A stretch of DNA of 64,000 nt from a virus, in the IMG/VR virus record IMGVR_UViG_3300017989_000104, positions 1 through 64,000 of that record. One strand, 5' to 3'. Shown here in pieces: positions 3,751-51,106 of this stretch; position 1 is the first letter of the stretch, and each line of letters opens with the position of its first letter. Both the position numbers and the translations under genes were made by a program. The notes under the pieces are model-generated. The model was given only the letters and a program-made list of their open reading frames with translations. It had not been told where the DNA came from and made no database searches.

Positions 3751-3924
3751 GATTGACTCCTTTCTCGTCCAAATAATCCTATTAGCACCTATGTGCTTTG
3801 ATAAGTTTAGACTTTTAAAAAATAAATAAATAAAAATAAACTATATAATAATACTTATACTAATAATTAATATATATACTAATATTTTTTATATTAAAAA
3901 TATTTACCGTTTTCAGTTTTTTTT

Positions 3925-3939
3925 AAGAACAAATAATAA
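3925..3939 (+). promoter_or_regulatory. Candidate late promoter motif (AGAACAAATAATAAA type)
   Basis: AAGAACAAATAATAA lies about 50 bases upstream of the structural gene at 3975, in the only gap between divergent genes here. It matches motifs before 7803, 8454, 8865, 25724 (minus) and 27643 (minus). It does not look like a sigma-70 or a T4 late (TATAAATA) promoter. Confidence 0.5.
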
Positions 3940-3974
3940 ACATAATAATCTACCGTAATAAGGATGTTTAACCA

Positions 3975-5747: not shown

Positions 5748-7706
5748 ATGGGAAGTAATATCAGTCCGGGCGTTTATACTAAAATTATCGACTTGTCAGC
5801 ATATGTAGCTGAAGTTCCTTCTACAATTGGTTGTATTTGTTTTCTCGCTGAAAAAGGTGAAGACAATAAACTAAAATTCATAGGTTCTCGACAAGAACTT
5901 GTATCTGAATTTGGTGAACCAAACATTGCTACGTATGGAAAAGGTTATGGACAAGGACTATATGAAGCTTATAATTTCCTTGGAGAATCAGGCGCTATAT
6001 ATGTAATGCGTCCATTACCTGATGATGCAGCATATGCAAATTTAAGAATTGACGCTGTCATGGGCGCAAGTGATGCAACATGTGCCATTGAACTTACTTA
6101 TGTTGACAGTCTAAATTCAGAAGCTGAAATTATTACAAACTTGGAATCTTCAGCGCCAACTTATCCATTAGGTTTCTTATATCCAATTGGCCGAGGTCAG
6201 TATTATAATAAATTGGGTATTCGTTTAACTGAAGTGGCAAATCCAATGATCAGTGACGTTTATGTTCTTGATGTTTATGAAAAACAGTCAGACGGTGATG
6301 ATCAAATTATTGAATCATTTGAAGTTTCATTCAATCCAAAAGCAATGGATGATACAGGTTCTTCAATTTATATCGGAGAAGTTCTTGATCTTTATTCAGG
6401 ATTGCTTAAATGGCAAATGCAACTTTCAAATGAAGAGTACACAGATGGTTATAAATTAGTTGCAAAGATTTATGATAAAGACATTGGTCTTACAACTGTT
6501 GACTTAACACCCGGTTCTGCAGAAATTGCAGATAATAAACAAGACTTTACTGATTACCAAACAAGTCCTGCAACTGGAAATGCTGAATTTATGATTTCAG
6601 CTAAAGACAGTCGAGGAAATAAGATTTGGGGTTGGATAGGACTTGCTGCTGGAGTTGACGGAGAGGTTGCTGAAATTTATAATGGCAGAGACCTTGACGC
6701 AGCTTCAAGAGGATGGGAAGGTGACACTGTAAACTTTGATGATTCTGCAGATGCGACATATCTTGTTAAGAAAGCTGACACAAGTATTGCCACAGCATTT
6801 GCTTCATCAACTCCTGTTCCATTTAGAAAAGGTTCTGACGGATCTTTACTTGATGCTTCTGGAGATCTTGATACAGCTGAAGCAACTCAGGTTCTTGCTC
6901 AAGCATATGCAGGACTTATTGATGATTCAATTCTTGACTCTGAGAATTTTTATTTCACAGTTGTCTGGGATGCTGGTTACCCAACTGACGTTAAGACACA
7001 AATTTCAACTCTTGTTCAGACAAGAAGAGATTGTGTTGCATTATTGGACAATGGAGACAACCCAACATTTAATGCAGCAATGACAAGACGTCTTCAATAT
7101 CATACTTATAACAATTATTTTACTGCTCTGTATGAAGAGTATAATAAAGTATATGACCCATTTACCGGTCAGGACGTATGGTTTTCACCCTTGTATCATA
7201 TGTCATACTTGCTTCCAAGAAATGACAATGTTGCAGAGATTTGGTGGGCAGCAGCAGGATTTAATAGAGGCGCCATTGAGTCAGTTAAGGAACTTCGATT
7301 CAATCCTAAGCAAGGTCAAAGAGATCAAATGTACTTGAAACAACTTAACCCAATTGTAAGATTTAACCAGGGTTATGTAATGTGGGGACAATTGACTTCT
7401 CAAGCGAAACCAAGTGCTCTTCAAGATCTCAATATTGTTAGACTTGTTCTTTATTGCAAGAGAGCATTAGAGCAATTCTGTAGATTCTTTATATTTGAAC
7501 TCAATGACGCCGTTACTTGGAATAAAGTATCAGGTGAAATTGTTGAGTTCCTCCAAAGAATTCAACAACAAAGAGGTCTGTATAGCTTTAGCGTTGATGT
7601 TGGAGCAACTGAATATGAAAGAAAACGTAAAACATTTCATGTAAATGTTATTCTTGAACCTACAAGAGTTGTTGAGAAAATTGAATTGAATTTCTTCATC
7701 AAATAA
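5748..7706 (+). CDS. gp18: Tail sheath protein (T4 gp18-like)
   Basis: This 652-residue protein begins SNISPGVYTKIIDLSAYV, the usual start of contractile sheath proteins. The C-terminal third contains the conserved region with FNRGAIESVKELRFNP and LNIVRLVLYCKRALEQFCRFF, ending in a long strand that interlocks sheath subunits (KIELNFFIK). The length is close to T4 gp18. It polymerises around the tail tube and contracts to drive the tube through the host envelope. The start is fixed by AGGAG eight bases before the ATG. A rho-independent terminator follows directly, so the gene seems to be a high-level transcript of its own, as expected for a protein needed in hundreds of copies. Confidence 0.93.
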   Translation: MGSNISPGVYTKIIDLSAYVAEVPSTIGCICFLAEKGEDNKLKFIGSRQELVSEFGEPNIATYGKGYGQGLYEAYNFLGESGAIYVMRPLPDDAAYANLRIDAVMGASDATCAIELTYVDSLNSEAEIITNLESSAPTYPLGFLYPIGRGQYYNKLGIRLTEVANPMISDVYVLDVYEKQSDGDDQIIESFEVSFNPKAMDDTGSSIYIGEVLDLYSGLLKWQMQLSNEEYTDGYKLVAKIYDKDIGLTTVDLTPGSAEIADNKQDFTDYQTSPATGNAEFMISAKDSRGNKIWGWIGLAAGVDGEVAEIYNGRDLDAASRGWEGDTVNFDDSADATYLVKKADTSIATAFASSTPVPFRKGSDGSLLDASGDLDTAEATQVLAQAYAGLIDDSILDSENFYFTVVWDAGYPTDVKTQISTLVQTRRDCVALLDNGDNPTFNAAMTRRLQYHTYNNYFTALYEEYNKVYDPFTGQDVWFSPLYHMSYLLPRNDNVAEIWWAAAGFNRGAIESVKELRFNPKQGQRDQMYLKQLNPIVRFNQGYVMWGQLTSQAKPSALQDLNIVRLVLYCKRALEQFCRFFIFELNDAVTWNKVSGEIVEFLQRIQQQRGLYSFSVDVGATEYERKRKTFHVNVILEPTRVVEKIELNFFIK

Positions 7707-37583: not shown

Positions 37584-40276
37584 CTATGTATATCCTCTCC
37601 TGTTAATAGTTTATCCATAACACCTTGATAATTACCAGCTTTGAATAATCCTCTTACAATATGCTGCCTTGGTCTTGAAAATGCGAGTCCTAATAACCAA
37701 CTCTCATTACTCGGTACCGTTTGAACTGAGATATACTCAGGTGGCACAGAATCTCTATTTTCAAGGAGTCTCCATTTTCGATACCCTGCCCACATTAACT
37801 GTGAAACTACACATTCAAAATGAACATGGTAAATTTTTCGATTTGTATTGTAAATCTTAAATAACTTATCAACAATATCTTTATAATTGCTATTCTTTAC
37901 ATCATGAAGACTCTTTGAGGCATTTGATAAATCCCCAACAATATCATCTTGATGCATATCTCCTTTGGAAGTTGCAACACCCGACGTATGAAATGTCCTA
38001 AGAACTAATTGAGTATTACATTCTCCTAATGATTGAGCAGCAATTACTCCAACATATCTGCTGTGAAGTTTTTTCCATAAATCCCCATAACACTTATGAC
38101 ATATCTGAGGAGATTTACAAAATATTGGACTTCTTATTTTGATAACTTCTCCAACTATATCTTTGAAATTATCCATTGTTATCTTAATATACTCACCATC
38201 TTTTACATAATATCTATCTATTAGAAGAATTGCTTTTGGTGCATCATCAACATAAACTTCTAAACAATCTTCAGTACCACAATCTTCTAATTCAAGATCA
38301 ATTTCTACATTTACACATGCAAAAATCAGTTTTCGAGAAAGGTATCCTGAGGTCCCGGTATTCAAGGCAACGTCTAATAATCCTTTACGACATCCATAAG
38401 TTGAAAGAAAGAATTCTCTTCTTGTCAACCCTTCAATCAATGAATGTTTAATTGGTTCAGGTAATATTTCCAAATTAAAATTTGAAATAAACCCTCTCGT
38501 AAGGAGTATTTGTCGTGCTTGATCCCAAGAACCTCGTGATCCTGACTCTATCATATATGAATATGCAAAATTTTCTTTAAGCATATTTGTAGCTAAAGAA
38601 CCATTAACTTGCTCTAATTGTGTTGAAACTTCATCACTTTCGTATAACGTATCTCTGAAACTCCTAACTCCATCAATCTTACATTGACCTAAGGAAATAG
38701 TTGCTCCAAATAGAGTTGAATATTTAAATCCAACTCTTTTAATATGATCAAGAACTTTTGTAGTAACTGAGAATATATATTTTGACTCTACGTCATTTAA
38801 TATTCTAATAAGTCTCTTGCTTATAACTACATCGTCAATAATCGGATAATCATCAGGAAGGCAGGCATTAAATATTTTCCTCCCTTCCGTGATCATTTTG
38901 CCCTTAAACTCAACCTCATTTCTTAAGTCGGGGAAAACATTTGAGGTTAAAGCATATATTCCTAATATTATATCTTGCGAGGGTGTTGGTGCCAAACTTC
39001 CATTTGATGGATTTATGAAATTTCTTGTGATCAAACATTTTTCAATGATTTCTTGTTTTGCTTTTTCAGTTATTGGAATATAAACTGCCATTTGATCACC
39101 ATCAAAATCTGCATTAAATCCTGAGCAAGATAATGGGTGAATTTTAATTACTTTATCTAAAGATATTGTAATATAAAATCCAGTCATGCTAAGTCTGTGT
39201 AAAGAAGGTTGTCTATTCAACATACATACTTCACCTTCAATCACTTCCTTAGCAATTTCAAATAATACGGGACTGTCGAGTTCCATACATTTTTCAATAA
39301 AGTCAACTGCTTGATTAATCATCTTGAATTTATTCTTTTCAATAAGCTTCTTTGCTATTTGAATTTTGAATAATTCAAGTACCATAAGATATGGTAAACA
39401 GCAATGATCAAGTTTAAGTAACGGGTCGGGAATTATAACTGCTCTGCCAGAGAAATCAATTCTCTTTCCTAATATATTTCCCCGTATAAGTCCTTCCTTC
39501 TTTGATAATTTTTCTAAGATGTGATTATATAATTCATTCACATCTTTTTGTAGAGGAGTATAATATTGATAATATATTGATTTATCCTGCTTAATGTCAA
39601 TTATAGTTGAAAGCATTATCTCTCGTTTTGTGAGAATTTGCGTATAATATCTATTAATGGTATCTGCCTTTTGATGTGCGCTATCAATTCCTCTTGAAGC
39701 AGGTCTTAAATCAGCTGGTAATACTACAATTTCATGTAAAAGCAATTTATCAATATTATCAAGTACCATTTTCCATTCAGGAATTCCATCAGCTGAAAGT
39801 CCAGTAGCTAATGTTTTAATTAATTCTTCAATAGCTTCAATTCGATCAATTCTTGCTGCTCCTTCTGGAATTACAGAAGCTTCGGTTGTTGCAACATATT
39901 CATCTTCATGCATATACAAAATACTTTTCTCATCTTTCATGAGAACATCAATGACTTTCTTTAAATCACTTCCACCTAAATTCACAAGTAAATCATAAAA
40001 TAAAGGATTTACAACTGGAATTGGCAAAGTGATTTTTGCAAACCTTCTTCTTCTTTCCACAGAACTTAAAATGTCAACTTCGCATATTGGACAAGTTCCT
40101 CCAGATTTTGAAACACCATAATACGTACCACATTGACATGTGTAATTCTTAATAGGACCAAAGATTTGCTCAGAGAAGAGTCCATCAGGATGAAATCTTC
40201 TCTTAATTATTGGTTTAGGAGATGTCACTTCCTTAAGATCTTCACAGAATTTTTTCTGATCCAGTAGTTTTGGCAT
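37580..40276 (-). CDS. rpoC: RNA polymerase beta-prime subunit, phage-encoded, single chain
   Basis: This 898-residue protein is a shortened beta-prime (E. coli 1407). It has an N-terminal zinc ribbon (C47, C49, C62, C65), KRIDFSGRAVIIPDPLL, HRLSMTGFY, and the catalytic NADFDGDQMAVYIP near residues 388-401 with all three Asp. RGSWDQARQILLTRGF and FFLSTYGCRKGLLDVALNTG follow (bridge/trigger region), then a second zinc site (CKSPQICHKCYGD) and VIAAQSLGECNTQLVLRTFH. The active centre is intact, so it should be catalytic. The large insertions and C-terminal domain of bacterial subunits are missing. Its stop overlaps the rpoB start by four bases. No sigma factor was recognised nearby. Confidence 0.94.
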   Translation of the reverse strand: MPKLLDQKKFCEDLKEVTSPKPIIKRRFHPDGLFSEQIFGPIKNYTCQCGTYYGVSKSGGTCPICEVDILSSVERRRRFAKITLPIPVVNPLFYDLLVNLGGSDLKKVIDVLMKDEKSILYMHEDEYVATTEASVIPEGAARIDRIEAIEELIKTLATGLSADGIPEWKMVLDNIDKLLLHEIVVLPADLRPASRGIDSAHQKADTINRYYTQILTKREIMLSTIIDIKQDKSIYYQYYTPLQKDVNELYNHILEKLSKKEGLIRGNILGKRIDFSGRAVIIPDPLLKLDHCCLPYLMVLELFKIQIAKKLIEKNKFKMINQAVDFIEKCMELDSPVLFEIAKEVIEGEVCMLNRQPSLHRLSMTGFYITISLDKVIKIHPLSCSGFNADFDGDQMAVYIPITEKAKQEIIEKCLITRNFINPSNGSLAPTPSQDIILGIYALTSNVFPDLRNEVEFKGKMITEGRKIFNACLPDDYPIIDDVVISKRLIRILNDVESKYIFSVTTKVLDHIKRVGFKYSTLFGATISLGQCKIDGVRSFRDTLYESDEVSTQLEQVNGSLATNMLKENFAYSYMIESGSRGSWDQARQILLTRGFISNFNLEILPEPIKHSLIEGLTRREFFLSTYGCRKGLLDVALNTGTSGYLSRKLIFACVNVEIDLELEDCGTEDCLEVYVDDAPKAILLIDRYYVKDGEYIKITMDNFKDIVGEVIKIRSPIFCKSPQICHKCYGDLWKKLHSRYVGVIAAQSLGECNTQLVLRTFHTSGVATSKGDMHQDDIVGDLSNASKSLHDVKNSNYKDIVDKLFKIYNTNRKIYHVHFECVVSQLMWAGYRKWRLLENRDSVPPEYISVQTVPSNESWLLGLAFSRPRQHIVRGLFKAGNYQGVMDKLLTGEDIHR

Positions 40277-40494
40277 TAATTTGATTTCCCTCCATGTTGT
40301 TCAATCACATACTGTGCTATAAGAACCATATGGTGTTTTACTTGTTTAGCAACAAGTTCATCTAATGAAGGAATCAAAGAAGAGACAATCTCATTGAGTT
40401 CGTCTTTTGTCAGTTTATTTTCTTTATCATTTATCTTTTCATCTATAATCGCTTCAATTTCTTTACGTACTTGCTCTCCTAAGATTCCTTCCAT
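40276..40494 (-). CDS. Small helical acidic protein, function unknown
   Basis: This 72-residue protein is highly charged and helical (EQVRKEIEAIIDEKINDKENK, SSLIPSLDELVAKQVKHHM). Its stop shares one base with the rpoC start. A polymerase accessory role, such as an omega-like subunit, would fit the position, but no motif supports it. Confidence 0.55.
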   Translation of the reverse strand: MEGILGEQVRKEIEAIIDEKINDKENKLTKDELNEIVSSLIPSLDELVAKQVKHHMVLIAQYVIEQHGGKSN

Positions 40495-40495
40495 T

Positions 40496-40699
40496 TTAGC
40501 TCTCCTTAGTTCCTTGAATTGAAGATTTTACTTTTGACACATTACGTTTCCATAGCTTTGAAGTAATTTCTTCAAGTCCGCCAGTGGCAATTGTTATAAA
40601 ACGTTTACCTATTTTTTTAAATGCGCTATCAATGTCATCAACTGCTCCGAGCATTTCTTGTTTAGTTAGCTCTTCTGCAGAAGGTTTTTCATCACTCAT
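40496..40699 (-). CDS. Small protein, function unknown
   Basis: The start was set at the ATG at 40699, behind TTGGAGGAAG, giving 67 residues; the frame extends upstream over the neighbour without a binding site. It has an acidic first half (MSDEKPSAEELTKQEMLGAVDDIDS) and a basic second half (KRFITIATGGLEEITSKLWKRN). It overlaps the E2-like gene by four bases and lies one base from the 72-residue gene. Confidence 0.55.
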   Translation of the reverse strand: MSDEKPSAEELTKQEMLGAVDDIDSAFKKIGKRFITIATGGLEEITSKLWKRNVSKVKSSIQGTKES

Positions 40700-41037
40700 A
40701 ATCTTCCTCCAACAACTTTGAAATGTCCATATGGAATTTCGTAACAATTTAAGAGGTTATATAATTCAAGAGATTTGTCTATCTTTTTAAGATTCTCTTT
40801 TGTAAACTTAAGTCCTTTTAGAGTGTATGGTAGGCAATATTCTCCGGTATACGGGTCAGCATTCGGATGACGACAATCAACTAAAAGTATTTTCATAATT
40901 TTGTCGTCTATTAATACAACTCTATATTTCTCTATAATTAAATGGTCATCAATTTCCTCTATTTCTGTCTCTCTACCTCTGTAAAATACCCTTTTGGGTA
41001 CTATCTTTCTCTTAACCAAATAATTTTCTTTTAACAT
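40696..41037 (-). CDS. E2-like (ubiquitin-conjugating-enzyme-like) protein, tentative
   Basis: This 113-residue protein carries HPNADPYTGEYCLPYTL: H57-P58-N59 then C68, spaced like the HPN and catalytic Cys of ubiquitin-conjugating enzymes (H-P-N-x-n-G-x-x-C-L). It is preceded by strands (YRVVLIDDKIMKILLVDCR) and followed by helices (FTKENLKKIDKSLELYNLL), which also fits the E2 core order. It is short for an E2 (about 150 residues). It sits two bases after the E1-like gene at 41040 and in the same unit as a Ubl and a JAMM gene, which is the main reason to take the likeness seriously. The C68 thioester role is inferred. Confidence 0.4.
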   Translation of the reverse strand: MLKENYLVKRKIVPKRVFYRGRETEIEEIDDHLIIEKYRVVLIDDKIMKILLVDCRHPNADPYTGEYCLPYTLKGLKFTKENLKKIDKSLELYNLLNCYEIPYGHFKVVGGRL

Positions 41038-41039
41038 TT

Positions 41040-41912
41040 CTAAGCAGCTCCTGTATCAGGAATCAACTCAATAACATTTTTCCCTGAAGATACTACATAG
41101 TAATTATATGCAAATGGTAAATTAATAGCATTCACAAGGGATTTTATAACATCTGAAAACGATGTTAATGTTCCAGCCGGAAATTCTTTTTCCATAGTTG
41201 GAAAGTCTTTTGGTCCAACGAATAATGTCGTAGCAGATTTTGTATTCATATCCAAAATTGGTTGGAGATTCTCATGTAAATTAATTAGAGAGTCTTCTCC
41301 TTTATTTGTCTCCGCATCACAGGACTCATATAATATATCAGGAGTTTTTGATCTTTGATCAATATATTCACATGCTTCGATATTCGATCCATCAAGTTCA
41401 TAACGATATACTATCTCTTCGTCTATAAATTTATTCACAATCTTTTTGTTAAATAATAATGCAACAGCATTAACAGCTCCAATAACATCTGTTTTTGTAA
41501 GCTTTGTTGTATAATAACCTTCCATTGGAGTTTCGTAGGTCGCTTTCTTTCTGCAATCTACAATTAATTGTCTTCCTGAAAAATAAAGTCTTATGTTAAC
41601 TTTTCTTCGATTGTAAGTGAAGTCCCTACAATCAACCACATAATCATATGGCGTTAAATCAAATTTGTCTTCATTAAACTCTATGTCATACTTCGATAGG
41701 GTAATTTTTTCATTTGTTTCTTTGATAATTTCTTCAACTGCGTCAATCTTTAACATCCCAATATGTTTTCTCTTGAAAACAGTATTTTTTAGATTTTTCT
41801 TTTCAACTTTATCATAATCTATAATAGTCAAATGAGTCACATCTCTAAAGTCAGAAATAAATTGTGAAAAGAATCCACCTATTGTGCCCAACCCAATAAC
41901 GCAAATACGCAT
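41040..41912 (-). CDS. E1/ThiF-like adenylating protein with possible C-terminal Ubl domain
   Basis: This 290-residue protein has the E1 nucleotide fold: VIGLGTIGG (residues 5-13) and IIDYDKVEKKNLKNT (30-44), where D-x-D-x-V-x-x-x-N-L marks ATP binding. YVVDCRDFTYNRRKV (91-105) corresponds to the usual V-x-C/D-x-x-D-N-x-x-x-R part, with C95 as a possible reactive Cys. The end (about 228-290) reads like a beta-grasp: strand TTLFVGP, strand with FPAG, helix TSFSDVIKSLVNAIN, strands YYVVSS and VIELIP, ending GAA. It would make an E1 joined to its own modifier. The E1 part is reliable; the Ubl part is weak. The second E1-like gene is at 43319. Confidence 0.65.
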   Translation of the reverse strand: MRICVIGLGTIGGFFSQFISDFRDVTHLTIIDYDKVEKKNLKNTVFKRKHIGMLKIDAVEEIIKETNEKITLSKYDIEFNEDKFDLTPYDYVVDCRDFTYNRRKVNIRLYFSGRQLIVDCRKKATYETPMEGYYTTKLTKTDVIGAVNAVALLFNKKIVNKFIDEEIVYRYELDGSNIEACEYIDQRSKTPDILYESCDAETNKGEDSLINLHENLQPILDMNTKSATTLFVGPKDFPTMEKEFPAGTLTSFSDVIKSLVNAINLPFAYNYYVVSSGKNVIELIPDTGAA

Positions 41913-41943
41913 GTTACTCCCCTATCCTAACAATTTAATTTGT

Positions 41944-42189
41944 TCAATTTTCTCCTTCCATTACGGAAATGATTTCATCTAAATTATCTCTTAAATATTT
42001 CATTTCCTCGATAGTCATTCTTCCTGCTTTACCATAACCTTGTGTGTTGTCTTTCTTCTTAAACATTCTTGTCATTTGGATTTTCCTGGGTCCTCCATCA
42101 TATGAGAATATAGAAAAATGTAGTGCTGCATCCTCATCTCCAAATTCAAATAACTTTATAAGTTTGTCATCCTTCTCAGAATATGCCAA
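41944..42189 (-). CDS. Small PC4-like (YdbC-like) single-strand DNA-binding candidate
   Basis: This 81-residue protein resembles the PC4/YdbC domain: strands LHFSIFSYDGGPRKIQMTRMF with basic residues, a turn (KKDNTQGYGKAGR), then a helix starting MTIEEMKYLRDNLDEIISVM. PC4-like proteins bind single-stranded DNA and act in transcription or replication, and some phages carry them. The likeness is to the order of strands and the GR-x-x-T/S-x-E-x-x-x-L helix, not to a single decisive motif. A possible use with the phage polymerase is inference. Confidence 0.45.
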   Translation of the reverse strand: MAYSEKDDKLIKLFEFGDEDAALHFSIFSYDGGPRKIQMTRMFKKKDNTQGYGKAGRMTIEEMKYLRDNLDEIISVMEGEN

Positions 42190-42249
42190 CGTTTATCACC
42201 ACCTTTCGTTTTAAATTACATATAATAATTGTATTAGTACTTTAAATTG

Positions 42250-42654
42250 TCAAGGTTTATTTTTAATCTCTATACATATCTTATGTAAAGATTTGCATTC
42301 CTTCCTAAATGTATCAGCTTTACCATAATAATCTGGATCAATATTTTTAATGTAATGATGAAAAATATTAGGATTTCCAATTTGAGTATATAACCTTTTC
42401 AAGAAAACAGTTAAATCCTCAGCAAGTTTTCTCCAATGATCTATATCAATTGGTTTAGTTGAATATTCTAAAGTTGTTAAAAATAATCTTTCTATGTCGT
42501 CTTTATTTATTGCTTGTGCAACTTGTGCAACTCTGTCGTCATGACTTTTTTGAATTTTAGCTCTATCAACTGTAAAGATTTTAAATGATTGTCCTTTTTC
42601 ATTCTCTGCTATAAATTTTCCATCTCCACAATCTTTTGTGATTTTAACGGTCAT
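42250..42654 (-). CDS. Unknown helical protein
   Basis: This 134-residue protein starts with two or three strands (VKITKDCGDGKFIAENEKGQSFKIF) like a small barrel, followed by helices (SHDDRVAQVAQAINKDDIERLF, HWRKLAEDLTVFLKRLYTQIG). No motif was recognised. It lies between the SAP-Ubl gene and the PC4-like gene, after a hairpin. Confidence 0.55.
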   Translation of the reverse strand: MTVKITKDCGDGKFIAENEKGQSFKIFTVDRAKIQKSHDDRVAQVAQAINKDDIERLFLTTLEYSTKPIDIDHWRKLAEDLTVFLKRLYTQIGNPNIFHHYIKNIDPDYYGKADTFRKECKSLHKICIEIKNKP

Positions 42655-42680
42655 AATAAAAAAGTCTCCTAAATAATTTA

Positions 42681-42723
42681 TATGAGAGGGAAATTTTATA
42701 TTACAAAAATTCCCCTTCTCATA
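42681..42723 (-). terminator. Imperfect hairpin between the Ubl gene and the next gene
   Basis: TATGAGAGGGAAATTTT (42681-42697) pairs with AAAAATTCCCCTTCTCATA (42705-42723) with small bulges. It could end or dampen transcription after the Ubl gene, which would make the Ubl more abundant than downstream products. Confidence 0.5.
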
Positions 42724-42758
42724 TAATTATATATATAGAAGTCTATTGATTAAATTAA

Positions 42759-43286
42759 TTACCCTTTCTGACCTGCTGGTTTCAAGAACTCAAGTTCATC
42801 ACCTTGTTTGATTACATAATTATCTTCAACCTGTTTTCCATTGACGATTGGAGAAGACATTTTGGAAATATTGAGAACTTCAGAGAGGAATGATTTAACA
42901 GAAGATACTGTTCTTCCTGTTACAGGGAAGTCGCCTGCAGCTGCGCCGGATGATACGCGAATTGTCGTGGTTGTTCGATCACCATATTTTGCAGATGGTT
43001 TTGTCAAAACACTGCTAAGAGTAAATGTTGCAGCTTGAAGTTTGTCATCTTTCTTTGCTTCGGAAGCATTTTTAGTTGGTTCGCCATCTTTTCCAATTCC
43101 GAGAGTCTTAGCTTTCTTGGAAGATTTGGCATTTGCTTTCGTTCCGCCATGAGCAAGAAGTATTGCGTCAACCATAACATCTTTACGTTTCTTTGACATT
43201 CCAGGAATTTTCTTTTTCTTGCAAATTTCTCGGAGTTCAACATTGTTAAGTTTGGACAGTTTCTCTTTTGTGTACTTTGATGCCAT
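42759..43286 (-). CDS. SAP-like domain fused to a ubiquitin-like (ThiS/MoaD-type) domain
   Basis: This 175-residue protein begins with a SAP/Rho-N-like helix pair (LSKLNNVELREICKKKKIPG then KKRKDVMVDAILLA), which usually binds nucleic acid. A lysine-rich linker follows (about 45-82). Residues about 104-175 fit a beta-grasp: strand TTTTIRVSS, strand DFPVTG, helix VSSVKSFLSEVLN, strand SPIVNGKQVEDNYVIK (compare the V-N-G-x-x-V of ThiS), GDELEFLKP, and end AGQKG. A C-terminal G is needed for adenylation by an E1. The tail ends in a single G after K, so the activated residue may be the last glycine. Codon use looks highly expressed. E1-like and JAMM genes lie on both sides. Confidence 0.6.
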   Translation of the reverse strand: MASKYTKEKLSKLNNVELREICKKKKIPGMSKKRKDVMVDAILLAHGGTKANAKSSKKAKTLGIGKDGEPTKNASEAKKDDKLQAATFTLSSVLTKPSAKYGDRTTTTIRVSSGAAAGDFPVTGRTVSSVKSFLSEVLNISKMSSPIVNGKQVEDNYVIKQGDELEFLKPAGQKG

Positions 43287-43318
43287 TTTCTTAATCCTTT
43301 TCGTTAAATAGTTTTTCG

Positions 43319-44011
43319 TTAAACAGCTCTCATCTTGCCTACAATTGACATCATCTCGATGTCAAAATAAACTTCAGGTTTTCCAAAGTTAAATTTTTCC
43401 TGAATCAAAGCATATAAAACCCAGCACATAACTGTTGCCGCAGTCAAATTGGCAAAGTATAATTGAGGAACTGAGTCTGCCAATTCTTCACATGACATAT
43501 CGCTTGGGTGTTTATCATCAGGACTGTCTATTTCAGGATGAAAAGATGTTAATGATGGGGAAATGTCTTTTCCATTTTCTCTTCCGTATACTTGCACATT
43601 TCCATCAATGTAGTCATTTCCTCCAGAAACAATTATAACGTCGTCTAACGTTCCCGCATGGTCGGATATCAATTTACGGGATTGGTGATTATCCACACAC
43701 ATAAAGACTAAATCGCCTGATCCAATATATTGTTTTACATTGTCTTGATCAATATAAGACTCAACAACATATTGAACTGTATTGACACCATACTTGGCAT
43801 TAAGCTCTTCTTGTTTGGATAATGCTTTGTTCTTTAAGTATATAAAATCTTGTCTTTCCCTGTTTTTGGGTTCGTAGTCATCACCATCAATTAAAGTGAT
43901 TGTCCAGTCATCATTTGCAAATTTACCAAATGACATAAATCTGCAAATTTTGTCAGTAAGAATTGAACCAATTCCACCAAGACCAATTATCTTAATATTC
44001 TTAATTTCCAT
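43319..44011 (-). CDS. E1/ThiF-like adenylating protein
   Basis: The start was set at the ATG at 44011, spaced correctly from GGAGG within the end of the JAMM gene, giving 230 residues. It has IIGLGGIGS (8-16), ITLIDGDDYEPKNRERQDF in which D-x-D-x-x-x-x-x-N-x-x-R-Q/Q-x-F marks the E1 fold, and VFMCVDNHQSRKL (near 102-114) with a conserved C-V-D-N-x-x-S-R pattern. MSCEELADSVPQL holds a Cys near 175 that could accept a modifier. Such proteins adenylate the C-terminal glycine of a Ubl. It lies between the JAMM and Ubl genes; together they resemble PRTRC- or Bil-type sets. Confidence 0.72.
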   Translation of the reverse strand: MEIKNIKIIGLGGIGSILTDKICRFMSFGKFANDDWTITLIDGDDYEPKNRERQDFIYLKNKALSKQEELNAKYGVNTVQYVVESYIDQDNVKQYIGSGDLVFMCVDNHQSRKLISDHAGTLDDVIIVSGGNDYIDGNVQVYGRENGKDISPSLTSFHPEIDSPDDKHPSDMSCEELADSVPQLYFANLTAATVMCWVLYALIQEKFNFGKPEVYFDIEMMSIVGKMRAV

Positions 44012-45068
44012 GCTCATCACCTCCGTCTAATAATTGATTTTCATGTGTGATTGGTCTGTGATTGTGTTCATCTCCACCAACAATGTCATAACCCTCAACA
44101 TCATTAGGGTCAATATCTTCATCTTCAACTTCTTGAAGAAGTTTATGTTCAGAAAATACACAATTCAAACAGGGATTGAAATCATGTGTATCTTCATCGT
44201 TGTTGTCAGCACCAAAATGATGTTCGATTATCTTTTGGTTATTTTTGTAATGAGGACTTCCAACACTATGGACTCTATGTCCACCACCTCCATAATGAAC
44301 ACTGCCCATATAATAACCACGTCTTACAGACTCAACGGTCACATAGTCTAACCATTTTTTATTGAATGTCATTTTTGAATCAGGAAGACCCATTTTATAA
44401 CCCGATTTAACGTCAGGATCTGAATCATCATTTAAATATGAATTAAACCAGGTGCTTATATAATGAGGTTTCGTTTCTTCAACTTCAACTTGTGTAAGAC
44501 CCTCAATATAATCACTCGCTTCAACCATAAATCTTTTTCCATTGATGACTACAGAAACTGATAAATCAAACATTCCATCATCCCAGTCTAAATGACCTAC
44601 CGTGATATGAAGTCCATCTGTGTCTTCTTCATCTTTATCGTCGGTTCCTGAATGAAAAGCACTCATATCCGAATGACTATGAATAGTACATACTTTTGTA
44701 TATCCAGGAAATGTTACAGTTCTTATATAATCAAGTCCCGCTCTTGTAACTTTTTGATGTGGACATTGAAGTTTAAACTTTTCATTTTCCTCATCAAAAT
44801 GTACCAATACAATTGCCTCACTCTTATGCATCTCATATATTACTTTAAAGAATGAGACAACTTTAGCAAAATGCAATGCAGGAATTGGAGGTAAGTCATA
44901 TGTCGCCATTGTCTCAACATCTCCAAGTGTTGAGATTTTATCAACCGGGACAATTGCATCAAGTCTTCCAAGTTTTTTCCTTAAGTAAATTCCATCTTTA
45001 CCAATTATGTAAAATATATCTGCATCAGGTACTTCTTGGGTTCCGTCATTAACATATACTGGAAACAT
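44001..45068 (-). CDS. JAB/MPN metalloprotease (JAMM) protein
   Basis: This 355-residue protein has the full JAMM signature: E84 in MHKSEAIVLVHF, H130 and H132 in TIHSHSD, then seven residues and S140-x-x-D143 (HSGTDDK). This is the zinc site of deubiquitinase-like enzymes that release or mature Ubl proteins. The region before is a beta-rich domain. The C-terminal part (about 230-355) has a His- and Gly-rich linker (VHYGGGGHRVHS) and acidic segments. It is not like the phage-tail K/NlpC protein, as no NlpC part is present. It stands directly before the E1 and Ubl genes, so it probably processes that Ubl. Confidence 0.8.
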   Translation of the reverse strand: MFPVYVNDGTQEVPDADIFYIIGKDGIYLRKKLGRLDAIVPVDKISTLGDVETMATYDLPPIPALHFAKVVSFFKVIYEMHKSEAIVLVHFDEENEKFKLQCPHQKVTRAGLDYIRTVTFPGYTKVCTIHSHSDMSAFHSGTDDKDEEDTDGLHITVGHLDWDDGMFDLSVSVVINGKRFMVEASDYIEGLTQVEVEETKPHYISTWFNSYLNDDSDPDVKSGYKMGLPDSKMTFNKKWLDYVTVESVRRGYYMGSVHYGGGGHRVHSVGSPHYKNNQKIIEHHFGADNNDEDTHDFNPCLNCVFSEHKLLQEVEDEDIDPNDVEGYDIVGGDEHNHRPITHENQLLDGGDEHGN

Positions 45069-45080
45069 TTAATTTTCTCC

Positions 45081-48000
45081 TTATGATTCTAAATTTCTCA
45101 TTCTCATTTCATCATGCATTGCTTGTTGGGCATCCTCAATAGATATTTGAATGTCATTTTCAACAACTTGTTGAACATGGTCAATGTCTGGATCTTCATT
45201 AACTATTGTTTCTTCAAATACATCTTGTGCCATTTCATTAGTCGTTTCTTCAGCAGCATTTTCTTCCATTTCCTCTCGGTCAGGATTTTCATTTATGTCT
45301 TCTGCATTTTCTCGGTCTGGAGCAGGTATTGCTTGAACTTCCCCTCTTTCCTCCATTTCTTCCCAGATCTCATCAGCAGCTTCTTCAGCAGATTGTTCTG
45401 GAGCTTCTTCTTGTAATGCTTGAGCTTGCTCTATTTCCTCATCGGTTTGCTCTGGATTGTCAAAAGATCTAAATGCCTGAGGTTCATGTAATCGTCTGAA
45501 CATAATCTCTTGATTATATTCTCTATAATAATCTGAAGATGTTGCTGTATTAGTCCATGTCATTTGAGGTCTTTCTCTAAGTCTATCAAATCTTCCTGCA
45601 GGAGCTGGCGGAGAAGAAGCTCCACTAGCAACCTGTTCAATATCATTCATAGTCTTTTCAGATTCTTCTTCAGGAAAATCCTCATCCTCAACCTCATCAA
45701 TATCTTGAGTTGGTGGAGTTGGTTGAGTTACTTGAATGATCTCATTTTCAGTTCTTTCAAGTTCTAATTCAAAATTCCTTTCCGTATTTACATAAGGCAT
45801 TGGAATCATTCTTGAAGTTGGAACAATACTTGTCGTTGTTTCAATATGTGGTCCATAAATAGTTTGAAATTGTGCTTCGTAATTAAGAGTCTGTCTTACA
45901 GTCGGAGTGATTCTTGGAAGTTGAAAACCATAATATACTAATTTGTTTTCCAACTCAGATCCTTTATAAAGTTCATCATTTGCACTAAAAGAAGGATCTA
46001 CTCGAACAGCTCTCAAATATTGATTATTTTCCATGACATTGTAATACAATCTATCATCTTCTTTGTGATAGATATAATCTCCAAATTGTCGTTTAATCTT
46101 CTTCGTGTCATATGGAGCTATTTTCATTCCATAATACTTTGGATGAGTCGGTGGGAAAATGTCAAACTTTTCATATGTTTCTTGATTTGCCCATAAGGTA
46201 CATAAATTGCTACAAATCATTAATGGAGTTGCTCCAGTTTCGATAAAAGCAACAATCTTATTTACATCTTTCTTTGGGAACATTCCAAGTCTTGGAACTT
46301 TCGCTCTGATCTTAGATCCGGCAACAATTCCATCATATGTCCTATAAGCTTTCCTTATAAGTCCTACATTTACTTTTGGTCCAGTTAAGGATATCTCTAC
46401 AATTGTATACCATCTTTCAATACCTTGATGATCTTTACATACTACATTTGCATGAAAATCTCCAGTAAATCTGTCATTTTTATATTCAAATCTAATGATA
46501 GTTTGAATAATAGTCATTTCATATGGGTTTTCCCAGTTAGCTACAATAATGTCATCCCCAACTTTAAAGTCTATATTCTCATGAATACCTGGGATGTAGA
46601 GTCTATCTTTCTGTGTGGTTATATATTCAATAAGTTCCTTTGTGTTATGGGATTGAATTTTCCTATTGTAATAAATAGGATCTCTTTTATCGTTTGTAAA
46701 GAATGCCCATGGTTCTCTTAAGTTTTGTGTATATAATCTTCGTCCAACAATAAATACTTCAGGAGTTGAATAATTGGGCAAGTCTAATACATTGTAAGAT
46801 GGAGTTCCAACCATATCAAGACTAATTTTCTGACGATCTCCATATTCATCTGTATATCTAAATATAGATGCTATTTTTCCAGAACTCAAAACTTTAATCT
46901 CAGTAAACTCAGCAACAAATGTCTTGGTAAATTGAAAACCAGATGAACCGCATCGTTTAAGTAAATACTTAACATCTTTTTGAGGTTTAACCCCATCAAT
47001 TGTAAGTTTATCCATATCAATAGGTCTTATATTTATTGATTCCTCAATATGATAAGCTTTGCCAAGTCTAACTTCAACAATCCCATCTCTTGTTTTACGA
47101 AACCCTTTAAATATTCTATATTGAGGAACCATTGAGCTGTCATGGTTATGTATATCAACTTCGACAACATCATTAACTTTAAATTCATGACCTCCATGAT
47201 TAAAAGTATCTGAGATATTATTAATATGAGCATATATCTTTTCGCTCAATTCATCGTTATATTTCTTAACAATCTCATTATCTTTTTCATCCTCAAATAA
47301 TATAGCACTTACTTCACCAGATGCATTATTCAAATCAATTGCTAATACATATAACAACTCATCATCTATAATTACATCATCACCAACTGATAAGATTTTA
47401 TCTTTAACTATAATATTATCAGTATATCGGTCATGTGTTGGAAGTCCACTTGATGTTGTGGTCAACATTTTCATTAGATCCTCAAATGTATATTCTCCTG
47501 AAGATTGACCACGATTCACTAATTTATTTTCAATTACACTGCTTAATTTATAATCATACATTAACCAGTCAATTGAAAATATAAACATTGGATCGTATTG
47601 TGTGAAATATGCCCAACTTAAATATCCCTGTAATTCAGGTGGTCCCTTCTCTGCATACTTATTATAATTTTCAGATAAATCTGTATTAAATTCATATTCC
47701 CACCATGCAGTAATATAAGTCTCAGTAATATCAATGAGAGTTCGTCGCCCTTTTGTCTTTGGTAGCTTTATATTACCTGTACATACTTCAGAGTTATCCA
47801 TATTCGTCAGAAACGGTCTGATCAAATAATCATCTAATGATGTTAATGGATGAACTCTAAAATATACATTGAATTTTTCAACTCCTTTATCTTTATTAAT
47901 ATCAATTACATAAACCAGATAAGGAAAAGATAGAGCTATTTCATATGGTCCTGGTGGACTTTGCTCTAAGAATTCAACATAACCATATTTTTCTAACTTA

Positions 48001-48365
48001 CCTACTTTCTGAAGTTCAACAGCTTCAGAAAGTAAATCCAATTTTACTTTAATTGTTCTTATACTTGGAGCTTCTTCCATAACAAGAATGGTGCTGCCAT
48101 TAGCTGTTTTATGAAAATATCTACAATTTGCTGGCAAGATCTCTCCAGATGCAGAGTCATTTACACTTAGGAGATTATTAATTTTTGTGCGTGAATTGTA
48201 AGTCGCAATTCTCTCAACTGCACATTTATCTAATTTTTTATCGTCTCTATAACGATTGTTAAAATAAGTCGAAGATTTAACAACACTTATATGATGTCTA
48301 TTAATAACAATTTCATTTTTGTCAGTTGGATTTTTCAATCCAACTCGTATATGTTCACTAGACAT
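45081..48365 (-). CDS. Large unknown protein of the ubiquitin-like cluster
   Basis: This 1094-residue protein has no family I can name. Its N-terminal region (to about 240) has strands and the part PYLVYVIDINKDKG, VYFRVHPLTSLDD and NMDNSEVCTGN, vaguely like the E2-like PRTRC protein B (strand, P-x-L, then V-C-x-G), which is a weak idea only. The centre (about 340-800) holds repeated barrel-like units such as DDVIIDDELLYVLAID, HEFKVNDVVEVDI and FKVGDDIIVANW, spaced as in KOW/SH3-like domains. The end (about 900-1094) is very acidic and Gln/Glu-rich, probably disordered. It is followed by the JAMM gene 13 bases later. Confidence 0.6.
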   Translation of the reverse strand: MSSEHIRVGLKNPTDKNEIVINRHHISVVKSSTYFNNRYRDDKKLDKCAVERIATYNSRTKINNLLSVNDSASGEILPANCRYFHKTANGSTILVMEEAPSIRTIKVKLDLLSEAVELQKVGKLEKYGYVEFLEQSPPGPYEIALSFPYLVYVIDINKDKGVEKFNVYFRVHPLTSLDDYLIRPFLTNMDNSEVCTGNIKLPKTKGRRTLIDITETYITAWWEYEFNTDLSENYNKYAEKGPPELQGYLSWAYFTQYDPMFIFSIDWLMYDYKLSSVIENKLVNRGQSSGEYTFEDLMKMLTTTSSGLPTHDRYTDNIIVKDKILSVGDDVIIDDELLYVLAIDLNNASGEVSAILFEDEKDNEIVKKYNDELSEKIYAHINNISDTFNHGGHEFKVNDVVEVDIHNHDSSMVPQYRIFKGFRKTRDGIVEVRLGKAYHIEESINIRPIDMDKLTIDGVKPQKDVKYLLKRCGSSGFQFTKTFVAEFTEIKVLSSGKIASIFRYTDEYGDRQKISLDMVGTPSYNVLDLPNYSTPEVFIVGRRLYTQNLREPWAFFTNDKRDPIYYNRKIQSHNTKELIEYITTQKDRLYIPGIHENIDFKVGDDIIVANWENPYEMTIIQTIIRFEYKNDRFTGDFHANVVCKDHQGIERWYTIVEISLTGPKVNVGLIRKAYRTYDGIVAGSKIRAKVPRLGMFPKKDVNKIVAFIETGATPLMICSNLCTLWANQETYEKFDIFPPTHPKYYGMKIAPYDTKKIKRQFGDYIYHKEDDRLYYNVMENNQYLRAVRVDPSFSANDELYKGSELENKLVYYGFQLPRITPTVRQTLNYEAQFQTIYGPHIETTTSIVPTSRMIPMPYVNTERNFELELERTENEIIQVTQPTPPTQDIDEVEDEDFPEEESEKTMNDIEQVASGASSPPAPAGRFDRLRERPQMTWTNTATSSDYYREYNQEIMFRRLHEPQAFRSFDNPEQTDEEIEQAQALQEEAPEQSAEEAADEIWEEMEERGEVQAIPAPDRENAEDINENPDREEMEENAAEETTNEMAQDVFEETIVNEDPDIDHVQQVVENDIQISIEDAQQAMHDEMRMRNLES

Positions 48366-48370
48366 AACCT

Positions 48371-48736
48371 TTACTCTCCTCTAACGTACTTTAGTCTCTC
48401 AGCGAATGCTCTAATAATTCGCTTACAATTGACTTCCTTTACACTCCATGTTCTATATCGTTTTAATTTATCATTTGGAATTTTAGGTGTTATTGCCCAA
48501 AACCCAACTAAATACTCATCAACAAGTTCTCTTTCTAAAGTCAGAAATCCAACTTCACCTTTAATTCTTCCTGGGCAACTAAGAGCTAAGAATATATTAG
48601 GTCCTACAGGAAGAAATTCTTCATTTTCAATTGAATCCTTTTCTTGTTCAGTTATTTCGTCACAAATTTCTTTAACTTGTTGATCAATATCTTTTCCTTT
48701 AAGTTCGCCAATAATTTCATCTAAGAGTTTTCCCAT
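48371..48736 (-). CDS. Unknown small protein
   Basis: This 121-residue protein has a helical, charged start (LLDEIIGELKGKDIDQQVKEI), a strand region with FLALSCPGRIKGEVGFLT and a helical basic end (RYRTWSVKEVNCKRIIRAFAERL). No motif was recognised. Its start overlaps the end of the gene at 48717, and it stops five bases before the 1094-residue gene. Confidence 0.55.
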   Translation of the reverse strand: MGKLLDEIIGELKGKDIDQQVKEICDEITEQEKDSIENEEFLPVGPNIFLALSCPGRIKGEVGFLTLERELVDEYLVGFWAITPKIPNDKLKRYRTWSVKEVNCKRIIRAFAERLKYVRGE

Positions 48737-49066: not shown

Positions 49067-49390
49067 TTAACCCCTTGGTCTTATCCTATATCGTTTATTA
49101 TCATCTGTCATTAACCACTCCGTTTTCCGAAAAGGGACACTTCTCCATCCTTGTTTCTCTAAATCATAAACATGAATGATTCCATTATCCTTTAAAAGTT
49201 TTAATATTCTTGGTAAATTAACACTTTTGGGCTGATCTGTCCTTGGTATTTTGTCAAAGTTTAATGTACATTTCATAAGTCTTTCAGAACCATCTTTCTT
49301 AGTAAACTTAACTTGTACAAATTCAACGTCAGGATCTCTCAATTTTTCTAAAAATGTCATAGCATTGTCAATTATACCAGCATCTTCCAT
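49067..49390 (-). CDS. Small SH3-like barrel protein (WYL_2/DUF2693-like)
   Basis: The start was set at the ATG at 49390 (GAGAGGAG before it), giving 107 residues. VQVKFTKKDGSERLMKCTLN followed by DKIP and later LEKQGWRSVPFRK fits the small phage family with an Sm/SH3-like barrel that I know as DUF2693 (WYL_2). It probably binds nucleic acid or a protein, with no known role. It ends two bases before the 115-residue gene and starts one base after the radical SAM stop, so it is within one unit. Confidence 0.55.
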   Translation of the reverse strand: MEDAGIIDNAMTFLEKLRDPDVEFVQVKFTKKDGSERLMKCTLNFDKIPRTDQPKSVNLPRILKLLKDNGIIHVYDLEKQGWRSVPFRKTEWLMTDDNKRYRIRPRG

Positions 49391-49391
49391 T

Positions 49392-50417
49392 TTAGTCTCC
49401 TCTCTTGTCCTCATGTACTAATTCTGAAGAACTCACCCCTTTGGATATAAGGTCTCCCATAATATAACATGTATGATTACATAAGCGACAATAGTTTTGT
49501 TTGTCAGTTTTAATTGAGTCTATAAAGAATGGATCCAATTTTCCATTCTGTGCAAATAATTTGTCAATTTCTACTCTTGGTGTTGACGTTCCTTTTATCC
49601 GAAGACAAAGTCTCATTGTCCCATCAGCATCAACACATATTGTATTAATATCTTTTTCCATTTTACAGTCTAATTTAGATGGAAGAGCTTCAACTATTTT
49701 GGGTAATAAACTCTTCGCCATATGTACATCTAGATTATCTTTAATAATTCGGTCAAATATTTTCTTTACTTCAATTGTGTCTTTAATCAAAAGATTTGGA
49801 TCATTTATATTTGAAAAATCATAATAAGGACTCTTAGCTGTATCTATGAATGTAATATCACTATTAATTCCCAAATCTGATAACTTTTTAACAAGGTCAT
49901 ATAAATATGGAACATTATTTTTATCAACTGTAATCTCAGCAACAAGATCTTTAATTATATACTTATATTGAAGTAATCTTTCAAGACCTTGTTCGCTTTT
50001 AACTCTACGATCAACGTCAGTTGAATCAGATATAATAAGTGGATCTATTGAGGCAGTATAACCCGCAACATGTACAGTATTTAATAAGTCGTCAAGTTTA
50101 TCCTGAAGTTCAATTGTATTATTGCTTATAATTGTATAACCTAATTTAAGATCATTGCAATATTGCACAATTTCAAATAAATCTGAGCGCAATATTGGCT
50201 CACCTCCGTAAATAATTACAAATGCGTCGGGATTATGGTTTTTAAGTTTTTCAAGAAAATTTAAAATTAATTTAGTGCTCATTTCGTTATCATAATAATG
50301 TTTCATCTTTGGATATGTTTTTGGTAATGTCTTCATATTTCTTACTATACCACAATATGAGCACCTAAGATTGCATTTTCTTGTTACTAATAAGTTAACT
50401 ATATGAATTTTATTCAT
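49392..50417 (-). CDS. Radical SAM protein with SPASM-like C-terminus
   Basis: This 341-residue protein starts at the ATG at 50417, which overlaps the stop of the HNH gene (ATGA). It has the radical SAM C-x3-C-x2-C at C15, C19 and C22 (CNLRCSYC) and GGEP (near 73-76), the SAM-binding mark. The last quarter has CVDADGTMRLC and CRLCNHTC, Cys groups of SPASM/Twitch domains that hold extra Fe-S clusters in peptide-modifying enzymes. It is not QueE-like: too long, with other Cys spacing. Peptide or protein maturation is the usual role. The substrate in this phage is unknown; proteins of the Ubl cluster nearby are possible partners. Confidence 0.75.
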   Translation of the reverse strand: MNKIHIVNLLVTRKCNLRCSYCGIVRNMKTLPKTYPKMKHYYDNEMSTKLILNFLEKLKNHNPDAFVIIYGGEPILRSDLFEIVQYCNDLKLGYTIISNNTIELQDKLDDLLNTVHVAGYTASIDPLIISDSTDVDRRVKSEQGLERLLQYKYIIKDLVAEITVDKNNVPYLYDLVKKLSDLGINSDITFIDTAKSPYYDFSNINDPNLLIKDTIEVKKIFDRIIKDNLDVHMAKSLLPKIVEALPSKLDCKMEKDINTICVDADGTMRLCLRIKGTSTPRVEIDKLFAQNGKLDPFFIDSIKTDKQNYCRLCNHTCYIMGDLISKGVSSSELVHEDKRGD

Positions 50418-51106
50418 AATCTTTCTACCTTCCATCCATTATCTTTAATATAATATCCCTTAGAACAACTAGTTAGATTGATATCATTATCTCTACAATA
50501 TTTAGTTAAATTTTTAATAATTAATTCATCACCATTTGGTTTAGTGATTATCCATTCTTTACTTGTCCATTCTTCTGGTTTGAAATCAGGATTATTTGAA
50601 ATCCATTTTTTAACTCCATTTTTAATTTTTTCTTTTTTTTCTTTAGATGAAATTTTTCCATAATTTGGATTATTTTTTCCTGAAAGTGTTCCAGCATTTC
50701 TTAAATCTCTCATGTTATCTTGATGTGTACCTGCATATATATGATCTGGATTCACACAACTTTTATTATTACATTCATGAAGAATTTGAAGTCCATCTGG
50801 AATTTCTCCTATATACATCATATAACTAAATCTGTGAGCAGGATATGTTTTATATTTTCCTTTTATGCAACAACTAAACCCACCATATCCTTGACATTTT
50901 CCACCTATCCATTCCCAACAACCTGTATTTTTATCAATTTCAATTTTACTTTCAAATCTAGATATAATATTATCTATATCATTAAATTGTTTTTTAGATT
51001 CTTCAGACCATTTTCTTCCTTTATTATTTTTACCATTATGACCTTTCAAAAATCTATTTTTATCATTAGAAACTTCATTCCCACAACCACATTCACATAA
51101 TTTCAA
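50414..51106 (-). CDS. HNH homing endonuclease
   Basis: This 230-residue protein starts at a TTG behind AAAAGGAGGG. It has an N-terminal Cys pair (CECGCGNEV), then the HNH part with ILHECNNKSCVNPDHIYAGT, where H, N and H form the active site and two Cys hold zinc. It ends in a NUMOD-like DNA-binding tail (WIITKPNGDELIIKNLTKYC). It lies between the gp46 gene and the radical SAM gene, its stop overlapping the start of the latter. This is the usual habit of free-standing homing endonucleases in T4-like phages. Confidence 0.88.
   Translation of the reverse strand: MKLCECGCGNEVSNDKNRFLKGHNGKNNKGRKWSEESKKQFNDIDNIISRFESKIEIDKNTGCWEWIGGKCQGYGGFSCCIKGKYKTYPAHRFSYMMYIGEIPDGLQILHECNNKSCVNPDHIYAGTHQDNMRDLRNAGTLSGKNNPNYGKISSKEKKEKIKNGVKKWISNNPDFKPEEWTSKEWIITKPNGDELIIKNLTKYCRDNDINLTSCSKGYYIKDNGWKVERL

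Follow-up and report, generated by a model that had tools for sequence, protein, structure and literature searches.

A predicted ubiquitin-like conjugation pathway of PRTRC type encoded beside RNA polymerase genes in a jumbo-phage group

Whether a phage may encode a complete ubiquitin-like conjugation pathway of its own is the question raised by a gene cluster on a stretch of 64,000 nucleotides (hereafter the window) taken from IMG/VR record IMGVR_UViG_3300017989_000104, a partial virus record 72 kb long. The gene set spans positions 40276-48365 on the minus strand, immediately upstream of RNA polymerase (RNAP) genes. An earlier sequence-only reading had placed five genes between 40696 and 45068, namely a JAMM peptidase, two E1-like (activating) proteins of the ThiF type, a beta-grasp ubiquitin-like modifier (Ubl) and a short E2-like (conjugating) protein. 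All five genes proved real, on the minus strand and at the positions given there, and the proposal of a conjugation cluster beside RNAP genes was well supported, both by family matches and by synteny in about 28 distinct contigs. The bounds were nevertheless too narrow, as the pathway runs further upstream, where an E2-like domain in the gene at 45081-48365 had been missed (Table 1). Judging from the conserved sequence features described below, these genes probably specify a ubiquitin-like conjugation pathway of the phage, which is of the PRTRC type (type 6d of Iyer et al.) and includes an extra E1-like/E2-like pair.

The E2-like domain forms the N-terminal ~270 residues of a 1094-aa protein, here called B, with Cys195 lying in the motif NMDNSEVCTGN; the C-terminal extension is large (~800 residues beyond the E2 domain) and without assigned fold. 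The Prok-E2_D match itself was weak (Pfam E=0.045, residues 183-239). Alignment of B with the proteins that other phages encode just upstream of JAMM revealed a common P-x(n)-C-x-G pattern, the C and G of CxG being invariant between B and the other phage PRTRC_B-like proteins, and a profile-profile comparison with the latter reached 94.8% (E=5e-8, 146 columns). Twenty-one profile pairs were compared, and the 18 outside the three positives, mostly negative controls, each gave 1.1% or less. Cys195 was present in 38/38 rows, which were not deduplicated. The other phage proteins matched TIGR03737 weakly (0.0057 for Vibrio phage D69, 0.0011 for Bacillus phage KLEB27-3), and that of D69 matched Prok-E2_D at 4e-4. 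Because B aligns with PRTRC_B-like proteins and its cysteine is invariant, the trio B (E2), A (JAMM) and ThiF matches the type 6d operon, that is, the PRTRC core.

The JAMM protein matched PRTRC_A (TIGR03735; E=1.7e-11, 44 bits, for a curated cut-off of 101.8 bits) and Prok-JAB (5.3e-5). The full metal-binding motif read earlier from the sequence was recovered as H130-S-H132-x7-S140-x2-D143, with E84 in addition; across 28 homologues the first four residues were invariant and E84 was conserved in 96%. The protein is predicted to be a Ubl-processing and deconjugating enzyme. A search of the PDB with its sequence returned spurious matches only. A near-invariant CxxC (residues 300-303, 96% each) was also observed in its C-terminal extension and is possibly a metal site.

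Both proteins previously read as E1s do match ThiF, but only the 233-aa ThiF1 combines a complete ATP site with a candidate catalytic cysteine that is invariant. This protein matched PRTRC_ThiF (TIGR03736; E=1.1e-10, 41 bits, for a curated cut-off of 144.75) and Pfam ThiF (9.4e-14). It has a DGD motif, and residues G13-x-G15-x-x-G18, D45, N53, R56, Q57, K65, D110, N111 and R115 were conserved in 26-27 of 27 homologues, as was the candidate catalytic C177 in all 27. The predicted modifier (SAP-Ubl) agreed with the earlier description of a C-terminal beta-grasp ending AGQKG: it combines a Rho_N/SAP N-terminus with a ThiS/TGS-type C-terminus. In the window protein a Rho_N/SAP match and a weak ThiS match were obtained, the best scores among family members being 2.7e-8 for Rho_N, 1e-7 for TGS and 7e-5 for ThiS. 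G172, K174 and G175 were found in 27/27 homologues. The residues following this GxKG tail differed widely: none, C, R, YK, DRKGC, IDVGL or, in locus L175, more than 60 residues. Moreover, one open reading frame (ORF; L102:6438-7397) carried two head-to-tail SAP-Ubl copies with GRKG in between. A constant GxKG, variable residues beyond it and an internal GRKG form the pattern expected of a precursor cut after GxKG. Profile-profile comparison of the SAP-Ubl C-terminus with the Ubls of other phage PRTRC sets gave 91-93% (E 1e-6 to 5e-7).

The distribution of the cluster was established by alignment-based scans of viral contigs, which yielded 80 loci for JAMM, 31 for the 290-aa ThiF2 (on contigs up to 248 kb) and 55 for SAP-Ubl, of which 47 differed in SAP-Ubl sequence; the counts overlap, since several contigs turned up in more than one scan. 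Single-protein scans with JAMM and beta' queries had found no relatives, and a DNA-level search of a phage collection gave no match. A match to the Acinetobacter 'phage' MD-2021a was dropped, as it corresponded to bacterial rpoBC. That the source virus is a member of a jumbo-phage group follows from relatives whose contigs measure 200-248 kb. The comparison of gene neighbourhoods in other jumbo phages that the sequence-only reading had suggested recovered genes and motifs alike: the order B, JAMM, ThiF1, SAP-Ubl, ThiF2, HPN, (u72), beta', beta was kept in about 28 distinct contigs, beta being counted for those loci long enough to contain it, with roughly 20-54% identity to the window proteins. 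Such retention is not a matter of chance. All of B, JAMM, ThiF1, SAP-Ubl, ThiF2, HPN and beta' were present in 46 of the 47 distinct SAP-Ubl contigs, the other being truncated. Catalytic residues that are essentially invariant suggest that these are core jumbo-phage genes.

The B-A-ThiF trio was also found in cultured phages of Vibrio (D69), Bacillus (KLEB27-3) and Salmonella (Arash). Outside the clade and the reference loci, a small protein ending in GTKG or similar lay near the trio in 46 of 86 JAMM-bearing loci, a count from a simple tail filter in which a few are chance ORFs. The tail protein of L056 was a full Prok_Ub match (5.9e-8), and the other phage Ubls have the same tail as this protein. 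In Bacillus phage vB_BauM_KLEB27-3, gp199 (L003:4694-5443) consists of four head-to-tail Ubl units ending KAGVKG; further poly-Ubl ORFs had three units (L002:8624-9415, Vibrio phage D69), five (L063:5048-6154) or six (L076, L077 and L078). Units 2 and 3 of KLEB27-3 were identical over 57 residues while 31 codons differed, all synonymously, and three L077 units shared 56 identical residues with 29-35 synonymous differences. Some units identical in protein thus differed by 21-37 synonymous codons. Such protein-identical, codon-divergent units are the signature of polyubiquitin, and they imply a mature unit with GxKG as its end and an extremely constrained sequence. Among these phages, two Arash proteins (L004), the B-type E2-like protein at 1519-2274 and the E1 at 3499-4539, are annotated 'structural protein'; if this annotation rests on virion mass spectrometry, conjugation enzymes would be packaged. 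The JAMM and ThiF ORFs of L064 and L065 were unusually long (603/540 aa and 628/825 aa), which suggests further domain fusions in other phages.

The second part of the cluster comprises ThiF2 and the 113-aa HPN protein. ThiF2 matched Pfam ThiF at 5e-15 in the window, and ThiF was matched in 28/28 members. Its AlphaFold 2 (AF2) model (pLDDT, the predicted local distance difference test, 88.5) consisted of an E1-type Rossmann domain followed by a C-terminal beta-beta-alpha-beta-beta unit (residues 228-285), and Foldseek related it to Uba4, MoeB and ThiF (E 1e-9 to 1e-8). The Arg of NxxRQ was absent in 28/28 homologues, and the only invariant Cys among these was C95, in a DCR motif. The protein usually ended exactly in TG[A/G]A, the divergent members L174 and L182 in ISA and AVA, respectively. 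Exactly two ThiF genes per genome were present in seven large contigs. A contig scan with ThiF2 also returned one 25-residue Vibrio match. As for the HPN protein, the HPN-x8-C noted earlier is present, but the main E2 lies elsewhere and this protein would be a second, minimal UBC-like one; its candidacy as sole E2 was dropped once the E2 domain of B had been recognised. H57, N59 and C68 were found in 27/27 homologues, and the motif was found again in a second contig set, with one member showing HVN. In the AF2 model (pLDDT 94.9), HPN, Cys68 and a helix come after a beta-meander. The top PDB sequence match of the family profile was the E2 Pex4, at HPNVNFKTGEICL (E=0.75), one family member matched UQ_con at 0.0033, and Foldseek aligned the model weakly with UbcH5c (E~2, TMq 0.43). 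The HPN protein appears UBC-like by motif and topology.

The genes, their domains, the active-site residues, the gene order and the Ubl tail are conserved as described, and from this anatomy we infer a scheme of enzymatic steps, of enzyme pairing and of substrate. JAMM would remove the residues beyond GxKG of SAP-Ubl, or split tandem copies. ThiF1 would adenylate Gly175 and then accept the tag on Cys177, from where the E2 domain of B would receive it on Cys195; the long C-terminal part of B may select the substrate. SAP-Ubl would then be joined to this substrate, and JAMM would undo the attachment. A second branch would most likely be made up of ThiF2 and the HPN protein, with ThiF2 acting as E1 partner and its C-terminal beta-grasp recruiting the HPN E2; in eukaryotic E1s, it is the ubiquitin-fold domain that recruits the E2. 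As the tag bears a nucleic-acid-binding domain of SAP/Rho_N type and the genes lie directly upstream of RNAP, nucleic-acid-associated substrates are suggested; our best guess is proteins that serve phage transcription or are bound to the phage genome. A more elaborate version is in our view unlikely: a heterodimeric E1 (ThiF1 with ThiF2 and its ubiquitin-fold domain) would feed two different E2s, the DNA/RNA-binding SAP-Ubl would be attached to phage RNAP or genome-bound proteins and so tether them to phage nucleic acid, and the polyubiquitin-like precursors of other phages would serve the same chemistry.

Several observations weigh against a conjugation pathway as outlined here. The PRTRC_A and PRTRC_ThiF scores lie under the NCBIfam curated cut-offs, and the SAP-Ubl tail ends in Lys and one Gly instead of GG. 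As to the proposed substrates, RNAP adjacency was seen in this clade only, the polymerase of D69 lying ~26 kb from its trio, and a strong hairpin intervenes between the PRTRC-like genes and the RNAP side of the cluster. Foldseek searches of the PDB and BFVD with the HPN model gave no significant UBC match. The ThiF2 C-terminal domain showed no sequence homology to Ubls in profile-profile comparison, and no ThiS match in the 28 members searched.

These last results also bear on the nature of ThiF2. This protein might be a fusion of E1 and Ubl in which the C-terminal beta-grasp, with its TGGA/TGAA end, is a second modifier that ThiF2 itself and the HPN E2 handle, so that two parallel pathways would exist. 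Its beta-grasp-like topology and the TG[A/G]A with which most members end are in line with this possibility. However, L174 and L182 keep the final Ala but not the Gly, and ThiF2 as carrier of a classic Gly-ended modifier was down-weighted for this reason; combined with the lack of Ubl or ThiS homology and with the missing NxxRQ Arg, these ends make the fusion somewhat unlikely. In our preferred reading, ThiF2 is the accessory half of an E1 and carries a domain resembling a ubiquitin fold.

A role in counter-defence or superinfection exclusion, the phage tagging host defence or rival-phage proteins in a mirror image of Bil or CBASS, was considered as well. Bacterial Ubl systems take part in antiphage defence, and PADLOC returned generic E1-E2 matches to both ThiF proteins, although these were its only matches, with no JAMM, Ubl or E2 match here in a release that may lack Bil models. 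Unlike patchy defence islands, the cluster has a fixed synteny and occupies one locus in all relatives found. This single fixed locus in a large-phage clade points to a core role rather than to a mobile defence island, and tagging of defence proteins is accordingly quite improbable.

The cluster could also serve sulfur transfer, the Ubl being thiocarboxylated by ThiF in the manner of ThiS/MoaD to deliver sulfur for nucleotide or cofactor modification, with JAMM only maturing the carrier. The resemblance of the E1 proteins to MoeB/ThiF, the ThiS/TGS match of the Ubl C-terminus and a radical SAM gene conserved upstream of the cluster would all fit, and E2-less Ubl-JAMM-E1 sets are known from sulfur assimilation operons (PMC1779556). 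Yet this cluster encodes two E2-like proteins with invariant cysteines, its tail is KG instead of GG, related phages possess poly-Ubl precursors, and rhodanese or sulfur-metabolism genes were not seen in the neighbourhood parts searched; a sulfur carrier is therefore very doubtful. Least probable of these readings is an assembly checkpoint without conjugation, in which JAMM releases the Ubl of a precursor as the virion or its tail is assembled and the E1- and E2-like proteins are scaffolds, since, despite the JAMM-Ubl pair of lambda tail assembly, where gpK cleaves the Ubl of gpI (PMC12908700; PMC1779556), and the 'structural protein' annotation of some Arash homologues, ThiF1 conserves a full ATP site and Cys, the Cys of B is conserved, the Ubl is a separate protein and the cluster adjoins RNAP genes, not the sheath and baseplate genes at 5.7-16 kb (sheath at 5748-7706), where the window has its contractile-tail genes.

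Regarding the surroundings of the predicted conjugation genes, the intergenic hairpin lies between the PRTRC-like genes and those for ThiF2, HPN and RNAP; it is without T-run and was not scored as a terminator, and it represents a possible transcript boundary or processing site. About 35 loci retain, upstream of the cluster, a radical SAM enzyme (49392-50435; Pfam 1.6e-12) together with two small proteins (48371-48736 and 49067-49414), which possibly belong to the same functional unit. Within AR9, the window beta was closest to gp89, a beta subunit of the non-virion RNAP, but the same AR9 gene was also the best match of a long (~1365-aa) beta, so that assignment to that type is only suggestive. 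The seven large contigs have two RNAP beta genes, one of ~1025 aa beside the cluster and one of ~1365 aa 31-38 kb off. Both beta subunits of the large relatives are unsplit, for example in L130 (G001:C1:158000-166000), whereas phages of the phiKZ/AR9 type have split subunits.

Table 1. Features of the conjugation cluster and its RNA polymerase neighbours in the window.
Feature	Coordinates	Strand	Evidence
B, 1094-aa protein with N-terminal PRTRC_B/Prok-E2_D-type E2-like domain	45081..48365	-	Pfam Prok-E2_D, profile-profile, Cys195
JAMM (JAB/MPN+) peptidase, PRTRC_A-like, 355 aa	44001..45068	-	PRTRC_A, Prok-JAB, zinc motif
E1 ThiF1, PRTRC_ThiF-like, 233 aa	43319..44020	-	PRTRC_ThiF, ThiF, conserved residues
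SAP/Rho_N + beta-grasp ubiquitin-like modifier, 175 aa	42759..43286	-	Rho_N, TGS, ThiS, GxKG tail
Intergenic RNA hairpin	42655..42758	-	-28.3 kcal/mol, z=-4.9 against shuffles
134-aa protein, in some relatives only	42250..42654	-	gene comparison
81-aa protein, in some relatives only	41944..42189	-	gene comparison
ThiF2, E1-like Rossmann + C-terminal beta-grasp-like domain, 290 aa	41040..41912	-	ThiF, AF2, Foldseek
UBC-like HPN protein, 113 aa	40696..41037	-	H57-P58-N59, Cys68, AF2
Small protein, start codon uncertain, in part of clade	40496..40723	-	gene comparison
u72, 72-aa helical-looking protein, kept by nearly all relatives between HPN and rpoC	40276..40494	-	gene comparison
RNA polymerase beta' subunit, unsplit, 898 aa	37580..40276	-	rpoC 5e-132; in all relatives
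RNA polymerase beta subunit, unsplit, 1018 aa	34527..37583	-	Pfam Rpb2 domains; AR9 gp89 6e-30

If the complete E1-E2-Ubl-JAMM set is indeed a phage core function, phages would use ubiquitin-like tagging in their own life cycle, and not only bacteria against phages. As far as found, the complete pathway was known before from bacteria and plasmids, with none for phages. No phage E1/E2/Ubl pathway was found in the literature searched, where subscription papers fell outside the scope and absence is not proof; neither JAB nor ThiF is mentioned in a comparative survey of jumbo phages (PMC7824862), nor ubiquitin in a 2026 jumbo-phage review (PMC13282480). In the same literature, phage JAMM with Ubl was described for lambda-type tails only (PMC1779556, PMC12908700), and neither phage precursor genes of the polyubiquitin style nor an assigned function for PRTRC-type conjugation were found. 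The cultured carriers Bacillus KLEB27-3, Vibrio D69 and Salmonella Arash make a role of the latter testable in laboratory phage-host pairs.

The cluster was also compared with known systems. Lambda gpK (JAMM-NlpC) and gpI (Ubl) are likewise a phage JAMM acting on a Ubl (PMC12908700), but E1 and E2 are absent there, the Ubl is fused to a structural domain and the genes belong to a tail operon. Bil (BilABCD) and CBASS Cap2/Cap3 follow the same logic of E1, E2 and JAMM, Bil also with a Ubl; they are bacterial defence systems, whereas here phage core genes with a PRTRC-type E2 are concerned. Pex4 and other eukaryotic UBC E2s share the HPN, the spacing to the catalytic Cys and the beta-meander followed by a helix with the HPN protein, which lacks their N-terminal helix and C-terminal helices and has no significant fold match. 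Polyubiquitin genes and the precursors of related phages have in common near-identical head-to-tail units with many synonymous differences; the window itself is without tandem, the two-unit SAP-Ubl being that of L102. Among the closest systems is also the PRTRC set, the type 6d operon described by Iyer et al. in 2006 (PMC1779556) and found on plasmids of diverse bacteria (TIGR03735-03739). It likewise comprises a JAMM with N-terminal extension (A), a Prok-E2_D E2 (B), a ThiF E1 and a small Ubl (C) with C-terminal Gly, and the gene order B-A-ThiF is alike, as in a Pseudanabaena plasmid whose Ubl candidate ends AGTKG-AI. TIGR03739/TIGR03734 (ParB-related, PRTRC_D) were not found in G000 and five large relatives, the window record being partial and the search for D without positive control, and the phage scores are sub-threshold; the missing ParB and PRTRC_D make the cluster PRTRC-like, not PRTRC. 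The earlier reading knew of no phage copy of this kind; the core set proves to be a divergent relative of PRTRC. A SAP domain on the Ubl, an E2 fused to ~800 extra residues, ThiF2, the HPN protein and a fixed RNAP neighbour distinguish the phage cluster from its plasmid counterpart.

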